Below, piece by piece: positions 2,442 to 63,829 of a DNA stretch of 64,000 nt. The translations under genes and the position numbers were made by a program. Below the pieces are notes generated by a model. The model did not search any database, was not told the origin of the DNA, and saw only the letters and a program-made list of their open reading frames with translations. Where the stretch lies: positions 285,858 to 349,857 of the forward strand of contig NZ_LT607802.1 of the NCBI RefSeq assembly GCF_900090205.1, given 5' to 3'. Within the stretch, counting starts at the first letter, position 1; every line of letters begins with the position of its first letter. Source of the stretch: Vogesella sp. LIG4. GTDB taxonomy: Bacteria > Pseudomonadota > Gammaproteobacteria > Burkholderiales > Chromobacteriaceae.

Positions 2442-3263
2442 ATGCCAAACCGTCGCTCCGTGTTCTTTGTTTCCGATCGCACCGGTATCACCGCAGAATC
2501 GCTCGGCAACACCTTGCTCACCCAATTCGATACCGAAGAATTCAACCGCGAAACCGAACCGTTCATCGACACGGTGGAAAAAGCACAGGAACTGGCACAG
2601 CGCATCGACGAGATTGCGGCCAACGATCACCGCAAGCCGCTGGTCTTCACCAGCATCATCAAGGCCGACGTACGCGCAGCGCTGCAGGTGAAAAACGCGC
2701 TGGTAATCGACTTTTTCCAAACCTTCATCGGCGAACTGGAGGCCGAGCTGGGCGAGAAGGCCACCATGTCGGTGGGCAAGGCGCACGGCATGGATGACGA
2801 GGAAAAGTACGACCACCGCATCGAGGCGGTGAATTTCTCGCTGAACCACGACGATGGCGTGAAGCTGAAGGACCTGGACGAAGCCGACGTGATCCTGGTG
2901 GGCGTGTCGCGCTCCGGCAAGACGCCGACCTGCCTGTACCTGGCGCTGCAGTACGGCATCAAGGCGGCCAACTACCCGCTGACGCCGGAAGACCTGGACA
3001 GCCCGACGCTGCCCAAGATGCTGCTGCCGTACAAACAGAAGATGTTCGGCCTCACCATCGACCCTTCGCGCCTGCACAACATCCGCTCCGAGCGCCGCCC
3101 GGACTCGCGCTACGCCAGCATGGAAAACTGCCGCCGCGAGGTGAACGAGGCCGAATCGATGTTCCGCCACCATGGCGTGCAGTTCATCAGCACCACGCAT
3201 ATGTCGATCGAGGAGATTGCCTCCACCATCATGCACAATGCCCACCTGGTGCGGCGCTTCTAA
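2442..3263 (+). CDS. ppsR: PEP synthetase regulatory kinase/pyrophosphorylase
   Basis: Bifunctional DUF299-family enzyme. In the characterised family it inactivates PEP synthase by ADP-dependent threonine phosphorylation and reactivates it by phosphate-dependent dephosphorylation. It is 273 residues, the usual length. The start at 2442 gives the conserved N-terminus [20 protein letters not shown]; longer in-frame starts (for example a TTG at 2220) would add an unconserved extension. The P-loop GVSRSGK is at residues 154-160. It diverges from ppsA across about 290 bp that must hold both promoters. One decamer repeat copy lies in the gene at 2615. Confidence 0.95.
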
Positions 3264-3382
3264 GCTCCGGCGCCACGTCAGCTGCGCGTTGTTGATACGG
3301 CGTTGAGCAGTTTCCGGCACTGCGGCCAACTATAGAAATTTTGGCTTGACGCAATGCAATAAAGCATGTTGAGATGGAAAGC

Positions 3383-3436
3383 ATGAATACCTGCTACGCA
3401 ACTTCCTTCAGCTTTTTTACCTGGTGGCGCCACTAA
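3383..3436 (+). CDS. tryptophan leader peptide of an attenuator
   Basis: A 17-codon open frame encodes MNTCYATSFSFFTWWRH followed by TAA. It carries two adjacent tryptophan codons (TGG TGG at 3422-3427) near its 3' end, the hallmark of ribosome-mediated attenuation. It lies 126 bp upstream of trpS and directly before mutually exclusive RNA hairpins. A GAGATGGAAAG stretch just upstream is a plausible ribosome binding site. Tandem Trp codons, adjacent antiterminator/terminator and a Trp-related downstream gene together make chance unlikely. Confidence 0.85.
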   Translation: MNTCYATSFSFFTWWRH

Positions 3437-3508
3437 CGGCGGCACCCAGGTTGCGTACGCACAAGCAAACCCGGGAGCAGCCGACAAGGCGCCCCGGGTT
3501 GATTTTTT
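3419..3508 (+). promoter_or_regulatory. transcription attenuator upstream of trpS
   Basis: Three segments fold in the classical order. Segment 1 (from 3419, covering the Trp codons) can pair with GGCGGCACCCAGG near 3438-3450. Segment 2 CCCAGGTT (3445-3452) can instead pair with segment 3 AACCCGGG (3468-3475), with one mismatch in eight. Segment 3 can pair perfectly with segment 4 CCCGGGTT (3493-3500), followed by GATTTTTT, an intrinsic terminator. Inference: low charged tRNA-Trp stalls the ribosome at TGG TGG, frees the 2:3 antiterminator and turns on trpS. Confidence 0.82.
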
Positions 3509-3562
3509 CCAGCAGTCCCCTCCCCCAGCGCCAAGTCGGTCTCCCAGACAACGGAGATCAGC

Positions 3563-61985: not shown

Positions 61986-62888
61986 ATGACCATCACACAA
62001 TCCATGCAGGATCACGAACACGCCGACCCGCGCGAGCACAAGGCTGCCCAGCGCAGCCTGTGGGTCAGCGTGGCACTCAACCTGGTGCTGACCGTGGTAC
62101 AGAGCGTGGTAGGCCTGTTCGCCGGCTCGCAGGCGCTGCTGGCTGACGCCATGCACTCGCTGTCCGACCTGCTGGCAGACTTCGTGGCCATGTTTGCCGG
62201 CCACCACAGCCGCAAGGAGGCCGACGACGACCACCACTACGGCCACCAGCGCTACGAAACCGCCGCCTCGCTGGCGCTGGGCCTGCTGCTGCTGGCCGCC
62301 GGCGCCGGCATGCTGTGGACCGCGGCCAACAAGTTTGCCGGCAACACGCCGATGAGCAGCGTGCACCCCGCGGCGCTGGTGGTGGCGGTGATCACCCTGC
62401 TGAGCAAGGAGGGCCTGTTCCGCTACATGCTGGCCATTGCCGAGAAAGTGCGCTCCAGCATGCTGGTGGCCAACGCCTGGCACGCCCGTGCCGACGCCGC
62501 CTCCTCGCTGGTGGTGGCGCTGGGCATCGGCGGCAACCTGCTGGGCTACCCGTGGCTGGACCCGGTAGCCGCGCTGCTGGTGGGCTTCATGATCGGCAAG
62601 ACCGGCTGGGAATTCGCCTGGGAGGCGCTGGGCGACCTGATGGACCGCGCCGCCGACGAAGACAGCGTGAGCGGCATCCGCCAGGTAGTGCTTGAAACGC
62701 CTGGCGTGCTGGGGCTGCACGACCTGCGCACCCGCCGCATGGGCGACATGATCCTGGTGGATGTGCATCTGGAACTGAATGCCGAGCAGACCGTGCGCCA
62801 GGGCCATGACATCGCCGCGGAAGCACGCCGCCGGGTGATGGCCGCCTATCCGGTGCTCGATGTGATGACCCACGTCGACCCGGTATAG
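61986..62888 (+). CDS. cation diffusion facilitator family transporter
   Basis: A 300-residue CDF metal/proton antiporter, exporting zinc, iron, manganese or cobalt depending on subtype. Six spans are visible. Metal sites are DAMHSLSD (about residue 54) and NAWHARADAASS (about residue 165), the usual transmembrane HxxxD-type pairs. DDDHHYGHQRYET is a His-rich cytosolic stretch. The C-terminal CTD has DVMTHVDPV. Metal specificity cannot be decided from sequence. A terminator follows. Confidence 0.92.
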   Translation: MTITQSMQDHEHADPREHKAAQRSLWVSVALNLVLTVVQSVVGLFAGSQALLADAMHSLSDLLADFVAMFAGHHSRKEADDDHHYGHQRYETAASLALGLLLLAAGAGMLWTAANKFAGNTPMSSVHPAALVVAVITLLSKEGLFRYMLAIAEKVRSSMLVANAWHARADAASSLVVALGIGGNLLGYPWLDPVAALLVGFMIGKTGWEFAWEALGDLMDRAADEDSVSGIRQVVLETPGVLGLHDLRTRRMGDMILVDVHLELNAEQTVRQGHDIAAEARRRVMAAYPVLDVMTHVDPV

Positions 62889-62908
62889 CCGCGTGTAGCG
62901 ACACAGAC

Positions 62909-62932
62909 GCCGGGGCCCGCCCCGGCTTTTTT
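62909..62932 (+). terminator. intrinsic terminator of the CDF gene
   Basis: GCCGGGG/CCCCGGC stem with loop CCCG followed by T6, 20 bp after the stop. Confidence 0.9.
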
Positions 62933-63073
62933 ACGCCCAAATCGCAACAAGGTTGGCCGCACGTGGCCAACAACAAGGGTAAGTCCGCATTGGCAGTTTC
63001 TCCGCCAGCGGCTTTAATCCACAGCATGGCCTGCGTCCGCAACGGGCGCGCATCCGGAGACTCCCCATACGCC

Positions 63074-63829
63074 ATGAAAGTCGCGCTGTTCATCCCCTGT
63101 TTCGTCAACGAGCTGTACCCGCACGTGGCCATGGCAACCGCCGAGCTGCTGGAGGGCTACGGCCTGGACGTCGAATACCCGCTGGCGCAGACCTGCTGCG
63201 GCCAACCCCTGAGCAACAACGGCGACAGCCGCGGCGCCTGCGAGGCCGCCAGCCGCTTCACCGACCTGTTCAAGGACTACGACTACGTGGTGTCGCCGTC
63301 CGGCAGCTGCACGTCCTACGTCAAGCACCACTACAGCTGGTATATCGCCGACAACGCCGACTACCGCGCGCTGCAGCCGCGGGTGTACGAAGTCATCGAA
63401 TTCCTGCAGGACATCCTCAAGGTGGAGCGGCTGCCCAAGCCGGTGTACTTCCCGCATACGGTATCCATCCACCAGAGCTGCCACGGCCTGCGCGAACTGC
63501 AACATGCGGCGCCGTCCGAGCTGATGATTCCCTACCACTCGCGGCTGGAGCGCATCCTGCAGCTGGTGGACGGCGTGGAAGTACGCCTGCCTGAGCGCCG
63601 CGACGAATGCTGCGGCTTTGGCGGCACCTTCAGCGTGGACGAGCCGGAAGTGTCGGTGGCCATGGGTGAAGACCGCGTGGCGCAGCACGAGGCCACCGGT
63701 GCCGAGTTCATCGTCGGCGCCGACCCCTCCTGCCTGATGCACATGGGCGGCATCATCCGCCACAAATGCCGACCCATCCGCCCGCTGCACATCGTGGAGA
63801 TTCTCACCGGGCGCGGAGGTGCGGCATGA
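63074..63829 (+). CDS. lutA: lactate utilisation protein A (LutA/YkgE)
   Basis: A 251-residue (Fe-S)-binding protein of the L-lactate dehydrogenase LutABC complex. Two cysteine-rich CCG domains are seen: CFVNELYP...CCGQPLSNNG and CHGLRELQ...DECCGFGGTFSVDEP. ATG 63074 gives MKVALFIPCFVNELYPHV and follows GGAGACTCCCCATACGCC. The stop overlaps the lutB start (ATGA), so the complex is co-translated. A decamer copy (63197) encodes CCGQP, part of the first cluster motif. Confidence 0.93.
   Translation: MKVALFIPCFVNELYPHVAMATAELLEGYGLDVEYPLAQTCCGQPLSNNGDSRGACEAASRFTDLFKDYDYVVSPSGSCTSYVKHHYSWYIADNADYRALQPRVYEVIEFLQDILKVERLPKPVYFPHTVSIHQSCHGLRELQHAAPSELMIPYHSRLERILQLVDGVEVRLPERRDECCGFGGTFSVDEPEVSVAMGEDRVAQHEATGAEFIVGADPSCLMHMGGIIRHKCRPIRPLHIVEILTGRGGAA

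Follow-up and report, generated by a model that had tools for sequence, protein, structure and literature searches.

The closest described systems are the DNA uptake sequences (DUS) of the Neisseriaceae and the uptake signal sequences (USS) of the Pasteurellaceae. Frye et al. (2013, PMC3630211) described eight DUS dialects for the Neisseriaceae, with ComP as their receptor; for five genomes (Laribacter, Lutiella, Pseudogulbenkiania and two Chromobacterium) they reported that an obvious DUS was lacking, and C. violaceum was reported there to be without ComP. The CTG core of the DUS is reported to be strictly conserved and essential (PMC12061091). For the USS, the relevant part of PMC12616744 calls the receptor unknown and predicts it to be another minor pilin. 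In the present work we describe a decamer that is, with a high degree of confidence, the DNA uptake sequence of Vogesella and a ComP-type DUS of the Chromobacteriaceae.

The window, a stretch of 64,000 nucleotides of Vogesella sp. LIG4 (contig NZ_LT607802.1, 285,858 to 349,857 of the forward strand), holds 51 exact copies of TGCGGCCAAC between 2615 and 63206, 30 on the plus and 21 on the minus strand, as compared with a mean of 0.53 and a maximum of 3 in 100 dinucleotide shuffles of the window. The original prediction, which had put the number at about 51, split about 30 to 21 by orientation with fewer than one expected, was therefore accurate. According to gene calls made with a crude, purpose-made script, copies within genes lie on the plus strand at 2615..2624, 7390..7399, 11110..11119, 13569..13578, 14405..14414, 16271..16280, 24148..24157, 27079..27088, 31517..31526, 35457..35466, 37035..37044, 40608..40617, 41112..41121, 45599..45608, 46452..46461 (in a weakly scored gene), 50504..50513, 61789..61798 and 63197..63206, and on the minus strand at 9845..9854, 11903..11912, 16188..16197, 21527..21536, 22367..22376, 37625..37634, 41873..41882, 43167..43176, 49397..49406, 50024..50033, 53897..53906 and 60862..60871. 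Single intergenic copies are found on the plus strand at 3321..3330, 5919..5928, 26538..26547, 29184..29193 and 48563..48572, and on the minus strand at 4618..4627, 17446..17455, 58442..58451 and 62952..62961; two further plus-strand copies were called intergenic next to genes whose starts are unsure (35938..35947, and 56144..56153, where the gene may start at 55.9 or 56.2 kb).

The remaining copies in the window form five inverted pairs. Two are perfect 20-bp inverted pairs with the left arm on the plus and the right arm on the minus strand (6889..6898 with 6899..6908, between convergent genes, and 27422..27431 with 27432..27441). The same arrangement, with a 1-base spacer, is seen at 8857..8866 (plus) and 8868..8877 (minus), and with a 7-base spacer and a T-rich flank, again between convergent genes, at 47510..47519 (plus) and 47527..47536 (minus). 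In the pair at 20168..20177 (minus) and 20182..20191 (plus) the arrangement is the opposite one, with a 4-base spacer.

Counting the word in the complete genome and in relatives had been proposed as a check, and its outcome was a large excess in both. The 4.15-Mb genome contains 2,895 copies, 1,437 on the plus and 1,458 on the minus strand, versus 8 (4 on each strand) of the same word read backwards. A 524-kb sample of the genome, made up of the window and 23 further 20-kb stretches, yielded 380 copies against 3.6 expected, and both orientations were present in all 24 pieces. The decamer thus displays two traits of the DUS class, a large genome-wide excess of a short word on both strands and dispersal within as well as between genes. 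A literal search of the literature for the decamer matched 76 papers, and the 20 among them that were listed look, judged by title, like chance.

The word is found throughout the genus, with 1,871 to 2,895 copies in 13/13 Vogesella genomes (1,871 to 2,442 in the 12 others, where the reversed word occurs 4 to 14 times), and at most 58 copies in any of the 48 other genomes searched. The words of sister genera are one-base variants of it: GTTGGCCGAA, with 183 to 2,168 copies across eight sister-genus genomes, GTTGGCCGAG, with 1,940 and 1,590 copies in the two genomes of genus g4, and GTTTGCCGAA, the second word of one genome (G017), with 616 copies. Outside the family, GTTGGCCGMA reached no more than 83 copies in any of the 291 genomes of the order sample. 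A de novo word search of nine family genomes that bear ComP and lack these words (G030 and G063, pooled, and G062 of g6; G018, G076 and G072 of g7; G019 and G083 of g8; G020 of g9) gave nothing convincing in samples of 60 to 120 kb each; the highest-ranked words, in the case of G076, look like gene-family or codon repeats. Copies with one mismatch show no excess in Vogesella (108 single-base variants, taken as a group, against 117 expected in the 524-kb sample) and an excess of 0.54 per exact copy in g4. In two control genomes carrying the AG-DUS the corresponding excess was 0.07 and 0.35 per exact copy, 68/111 variants in the latter falling on the two extension bases; since the controls differ from each other in this respect, the one-mismatch level is not decisive.

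When read in DUS orientation the decamer becomes (A)AG-GTTGGCCGCA. Like the DUS of the Neisseriaceae, it consists of about ten bases with a semi-conserved AG 5' extension, is present in thousands of copies on both strands, forms inverted pairs, and occurs in group-specific dialects one or two bases apart in genomes with a ComP ortholog. It differs in its host family, the Chromobacteriaceae, and in having CCG rather than CTG at +6 to +8, and one Chromobacteriaceae dialect has G, not A, at +10. In place of the CTG core and the +10 A expected of a known dialect, the Vogesella word shows CCG and A and the g4 word CCG and G, and for this reason the words were not filed within the known dialect set. 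The statement in the original prediction that the CTG core is missing was correct, but the other strand does fit the DUS register, with CCG replacing CTG. Among the seven dialects compared (all but wadDUS, which contains an inserted base), the Vogesella word shares T at +2 with AG-mucDUS, T at +3 with AG-simDUS and C at +9 with AA-king3DUS, whereas neither its G at +5 nor its C at +7 occurs in any of the seven. As with the decamer, the USS of the Pasteurellaceae is a genome-wide uptake tag. Compared with the USS 9-mers, however, the decamer shows little resemblance in sequence, with 5 matches at best by a plain count.

This partial likeness has to be weighed against the possibility, which we regard as real though the less probable, that the word is an uptake sequence of independent Chromobacteriaceae origin, read by ComP or another pilin, and that it resembles the Neisseria DUS by chance. 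Of six shuffle tests (p 0.04 to 0.42), a single one places the core decamers closer to known DUS than chance would allow, and CCG stands where CTG would be expected. Moreover, a CTG-type pattern reaches 482 to 973 copies in ten genomes of the family (139 to 205 for the reversed pattern), far below the 2,443 to 5,648 copies in 7/8 genomes of family f44; in two f44 genomes used as controls a k-mer ranking returned the AG-DUS unprompted as the top word. On the other hand, the receptor family is common to both, and the AG 5' extension of the words falls in the DUS register. The AG-extended 12-mers gave p values of 0.005 to 0.028 in a fixed and 0.0096 to 0.078 in a free register; in AGGTTGGCCGCA and AGGTTGGCCGAA 10/12 positions (shuffle p 0.004 to 0.005), and in AGGTTGGCCGAG 9/12 (p 0.018), carry a base used there by some known dialect. 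Judged from these letters, a common ancestral word for Vogesella and the Neisseria DUS is suggestive only.

The putative receptor, ComP, was sought with a profile built from eight Vogesella sequences together with G014 and G019, the scores of all these sequences being therefore high by construction. A near full-length match was obtained in 13/13 Vogesella genomes (E 7e-65 to 1.4e-60), so that each of these genomes also encodes an ortholog of this minor pilin. When the PDB was searched with the pilin family profile the first three matches were 2NBA, 2M3K and 5HZ7, the ComP structures used in PMC12061091. Single sequences are less telling: with the pilin of G011 the major pilins came first, through its N-terminal helix, and ComP after them, and the pilin of the window's own genome scored 23.8 bits, under the Pfam ComP cut-off of 27.3. 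Higher-scoring PF16732 classes in Vogesella (A, B and C) were dropped as ComP, none being present in all genomes; the WPxLP class is present in 13/13. The gene adjoins aroB in 13/13 Vogesella and in the window's genome lies about 2 kb from pilQ. ComEC, DprA and PilQ were all found in that genome; the ComEC and DprA searches also match 12/14 and 10/14 control genomes.

ComP orthologs are also encoded by family genomes in which these words are not abundant, the source of 27 of the 50 aligned ComPs, and hence the word cannot be predicted from the presence of ComP by itself. An N-[TAV]-D loop, searched as a plain pattern, was seen in the ComPs of 22/23 word-bearing genomes and 3/27 others, in a comparison, uncorrected for phylogeny, of the 50 ComPs extracted from 61 genomes. 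The loop was not relied on as a marker in view of the three exceptions, of which two match elsewhere in the protein and one, G076, at the same column; the g7 ComPs carry near versions of it at that column. The branching order of the genera could not be read from the ComP tree, and no dates for the dialects were drawn from it.

The placement of the copies bears on three further explanations. In the 524-kb sample 229/380 copies fall within genes, on either strand, and most copies are single. It had been suggested that the copies lie in different reading frames, and indeed all six orientation and frame classes are occupied (31, 10, 78, 9, 2 and 99 of the 229), although 177/229 belong to just two of the frames, those translated as LAA or AAN. 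Their reported scarcity in ygiQ, aspS and lysC was also seen, with zero copies in the genes called there, but is unremarkable, as 6/15 window genes of at least 1 kb have none. At orthologous sites conservation of the decamer was 72% versus 31%. Spacing in Vogesella is more even than random (CV 0.78), a trait not common to the AG-DUS control G257 (1.01) or g4 (0.96); one of the two AG-DUS controls is thus without it. The inverted intergenic pairs that had been noted were also seen, with 33/34 close pairs inverted and 32 of these 33 intergenic, and the same preference was seen in the AG-DUS controls (97/100 and 41/41), which likewise have inverted pairs in high number.

A word linked to methylation or restriction, similar to the cyanobacterial HIP1, might also be abundant on both strands, and the decamer does contain the palindrome GGCC. 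Yet the enriched word is not itself a palindrome, both the decamer and its AAG extension being asymmetric, its single-base variants are not in excess, and the surplus of inverted intergenic pairs would be left unexplained; as restriction would be expected to favour avoidance of a word and not its excess, we consider this explanation very improbable. Equally hard to sustain is a segregation or recombination signal of the KOPS, Chi or matS type, the strand clustering of which had been named as grounds for rejecting an uptake role. With replichores assigned from GC skew, the copies of the 524-kb sample divide 215 to 165 (p 0.012), a weak bias that speaks for such a signal, but a polarity of 57% is far under that of polar signals, both orientations occur in every piece, and the inverted pairs do not fit. 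That the word is a repeated terminator or REP-like element, as might be proposed from its 33 inverted pairs, 32 of them intergenic, none between divergent genes and some with T-rich flanks, is most unlikely given that copies are mostly single and often within genes on either strand, and that conservation beyond the word fades within about four bases; terminator use of the pairs looks secondary.

The original prediction of an uptake code is thus supported by the occurrence of the word in 13/13 genomes, its one-base dialects, the conservation of sites, the inverted intergenic pairs, the ComP orthologs and the similar architecture in the controls. The decamer is most likely a self-recognition tag for DNA uptake, and the best reading is of a ComP-DUS system outside the Neisseriaceae with a rewritten core. 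In such a system free DNA would be caught at the cell surface by the minor type IV pilin ComP through binding of the word, and retraction of the pilus through PilQ, followed by ComEC and DprA, would bring the tagged DNA in for recombination. Because tagged alleles would be preferentially taken up, copies would accumulate and be restored genome-wide, and the system may be shared with the sister genera, there in the dialects GTTGGCCGAA, GTTGGCCGAG and GTTTGCCGAA. As to its history, there is perhaps an even chance that DUS and ComP are older than the split of the Neisseriaceae and Chromobacteriaceae, that in one branch the core changed from CTG to CCG together with ComP, that at least four words then arose by change at +4, +9 and +10, and that the word was lost and ComP kept in genera such as g7, g8 and, with the exception of one of the genomes searched, g6.

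One letter at which the spellings of these relatives depart from the Neisseria tag has been considered essential. Four words, one or two bases apart, together with their ComPs, provide a natural experiment on the joint change of a receptor and its DNA word, of which the relatives with ComP and without the word are a further part, and such pairs of word and ComP make the reading of DUS by ComP testable. The word could also be of use in establishing transformation of environmental Vogesella strains.

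In the original prediction it was proposed that the decamer TGCGGCCAAC occurs some 51 times in the window, on both strands and far above what base composition allows. Our count bears this out, as 51 exact copies (30 on the plus and 21 on the minus strand) were found against a mean of 0.53 in shuffled sequence. When the count was extended to the whole genome, as had been suggested, the single contig of 4,147,242 bases, of which the window covers 285,858 to 349,857, was found to carry 2,895 copies (1,437 and 1,458 by strand) against eight of the reversed word, which is not near expectation. 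The decamer was also the top 10-mer of a 524-kb sample made up of the window plus 23 pieces, each 20 kb long, with 380 copies versus 3.6 expected from tetramers. A stretch of the same genome with low GC content (L073, G000:C1:640001-660000; 56.7%) holds 7 copies per 20 kb versus an average of about 14.5, and may be recently acquired DNA. Other features of the window include two tandem arrays of 33-bp (66-bp) repeats with about 13 copies each, at 33202-33631 and 34223-34651, lying in or overlapping minus-strand called genes (33197-33724 and 34217-34621, respectively), and a minus-strand tRNA cluster (Glu, Arg, Ser) at 58578-58834. All 15 near matches to a 21-mer built from repeated 12-mers were located inside the two arrays.

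Read in the orientation of the DNA uptake sequence (DUS) of Neisseriaceae, the word is GTTGGCCGCA. Among 379 copies with full flanks, A, A and G are favoured at -3, -2 and -1 (61, 54 and 56%), with weak preferences at +11 to +13 and flat conservation further out. Pooled single-base variants number 108 in the 524-kb sample versus 117 expected, and it is mainly changes at +1 and +10 that exceed expectation. By a crude codon-based gene caller written for this analysis, 229 of the 380 copies lie within genes, 150 are intergenic and one is at an edge; since 81% of bases were called coding, copies lie between genes about two times as often as the amount of intergenic sequence would give. Copies within genes had been said to fall in different reading frames, and indeed all six orientation and frame classes were seen, with 177 of the 229 in the frames reading LAA and AAN. 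Even spacing, which the prediction had singled out for examination together with conservation, was observed as well: after close pairs were merged, gaps had a mean of 1,399 bp and a coefficient of variation (CV) of 0.78, only 10 of 322 were shorter than 200 bp (35 expected), and the variance-to-mean ratio of copies per 2-kb bin was 0.67. Corresponding gap CVs were 1.01 and 0.86 in two control genomes of family f44 whose top word is AG-DUS, and 0.96 in the sister genus g4; evenness is thus not a trait that all of them share.

Where neighbouring copies start no more than 40 bp apart, 33 of 34 pairs in the sample are inverted, resembling the AG-DUS controls of f44 (97 of 100 and 41 of 41). Of these inverted pairs 32 of 33 are intergenic, and none was found between divergent genes, even though 62 of the 320 intergenic gaps are divergent; some have T-rich flanks. 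An additional role in transcription termination would produce such placement and flanks. Conservation was assessed in 73 of the 78 possible pairings of Vogesella genomes, as the remaining five shared no more than 5 kb of alignment within the stretches compared. The word's decamers were identical in the partner genome in 1,184 of 1,645 cases (72%), versus 50,344 of 163,718 (31%) for composition-matched decamers and 29% for all decamers; because each pair was scored in both directions and a given site returns in many pairs, these cases are not independent. A gap of this kind was present in every one of the 25 pairs with more than 80% identity.

The word is abundant in the 12 other Vogesella genomes, with 1,871 to 2,442 copies against 4 to 14 of the reversed word, compared with 8 to 58 copies in 24 family genomes of other genera and 2 to 40 in 24 members of the order outside the family. 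In the NCBI taxonomy Vogesella belongs to Chromobacteriaceae, Neisseriales, and family f1 is therefore taken to be Chromobacteriaceae. In blind 10-mer rankings of 17- to 80-kb samples from sister genera, the one-base variant GTTGGCCGAA came top in g3, g5, g10 and genome G017 of g6, and GTTGGCCGAG in g4; in g2, GTTGGCCGAA was first in one of two samples with only five copies and absent as top word in the other. The AG extension was found in the top 12-mers of g3, g4, g5, g10 and G017. Whole-genome counts in 61 family genomes gave for GTTGGCCGAA 2,168 copies in G014, 1,851 in G021 (80% complete, 7% contamination), 1,368 in G017, 1,245 in G016, 1,104 in G013, 893 in G022, 579 in G023 and 183 in G029 (84% complete), with 78 and 77 in the two g4 genomes and 8 to 62 in all others, Vogesella among them with 8 to 34. 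GTTGGCCGAG reached 1,940 copies in G024, 1,590 in G015 and 165 in G023 (others 13 to 92), and GTTTGCCGAA 616 in G017 (others at most 66). G017 thus has two words, neither of which is present in bulk in nine other g6 genomes, a state that recalls the double dialect described for Simonsiella (PMC3630211). G023, of g3, is also mixed, with 579 and 165 copies of GTTGGCCGAA and GTTGGCCGAG compared with 2,168 and 55 in G014 of the same genus. Altogether 23 of the 61 genomes, G029 included, have one of these words in high copy number, and GTTGGCCGMA did not exceed 83 copies in the 291 non-f1 genomes of an order-wide sample of 300 (nine being f1).

Like the word, a putative receptor, the minor pilin ComP, was found throughout Vogesella. 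Matches to PF16732 (ComP_DUS) occurred in 39 of 41 genomes searched, and the model is therefore not specific; one class of matches, with WPxLP, was present in 13 of 13 Vogesella genomes. A ten-row profile of this class (eight Vogesella, G014 and the word-less G019, whose match scores are thus self-included) matched in PDB first 2NBA (1.3e-15), 2M3K, Minor pilin ComP (4e-14), and 5HZ7, ComP (2.6e-13), with other pilins after; all three are used as ComP structures in PMC12061091. The pilin of the window's genome alone gave 2M3K first at 2.5e-4 with a sub-threshold Pfam score, and with that of G011 major pilins ranked first, 2NBA being matched at 6.9e-9. Across the 61 family genomes the best match ranged from 7e-65 to 1.4e-60 in Vogesella, from 3.4e-51 to 6.1e-32 in ten other word-bearing genomes and from 1.5e-43 to 2.6e-12 in word-less ones. 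In the window's genome comP is found past the end of a pilus gene cluster that includes pilQ, aroK and aroB (names except PilQ assigned by eye), and ComEC, DprA and PilQ models score above cut-off. The comP gene adjoins aroB in 13 of 13 Vogesella genomes; none of the 17 loci from other genera, which cover at most 1.5 kb on each side, shows this arrangement. Immediately upstream in the window's genome, a small gene call of low score (stretch L032, 9659-10422) overlaps the comP start by four bases and possibly encodes a companion protein. Judged from sequence, the Vogesella decamer would very probably be an uptake sequence read by ComP; a main weak point of this reading is that ComP also occurs in relatives without such a word.

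Frye et al. (2013, PMC3630211) described eight DUS dialects, which all have A at +10 and the bases CTG at +6 to +8. They saw no obvious DUS in Laribacter, Lutiella, Pseudogulbenkiania or the two genomes of Chromobacterium, and placed the emergence of the system later than the divergence from C. violaceum. A 2024 species description lists eight Neisseriaceae dialects and further candidate 12-mers whose hallmark is CTG at 6 to 8. According to a 2025 modelling paper (PMC12061091), any single CTG change abolishes transformation in N. meningitidis as well as in N. subflava. In a search of openly accessible journal papers, Table S1D of Frye et al. excepted, none was found to mention Vogesella together with 'uptake sequence'. 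As a control, a pattern of the CTG dialects, wadDUS left out, occurred 2,443 to 5,648 times in seven of eight f44 genomes, the eighth having 107, and 482 to 973 times in 10 f1 genomes (reversed pattern 139 to 205), an excess that we read as putatively common CTGCA-type words. Ranking of 10-mers put GGCCGTCTGA and AGGCCGTCTG, the AG-DUS, first in two f44 genomes, where excess single-base variants per exact copy were 0.07 and 0.35 versus -0.02 for Vogesella and 0.54 for g4. When aligned in the 10+2 register, AGGTTGGCCGAA matches AG-mucDUS at 9 of 12 bases (shuffle p 0.005; free register 0.0096), AGGTTGGCCGCA 8 of 12 (0.028; 0.078) and AGGTTGGCCGAG 8 of 12 (0.024; 0.064), and core decamers alone gave p 0.04 to 0.42 against known DUS, all p values being uncorrected over many tests. 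The likeness to DUS is thus suggestive, and we consider the chances about even that the Vogesella word and the DUS of Neisseria go back to one ancestral word.
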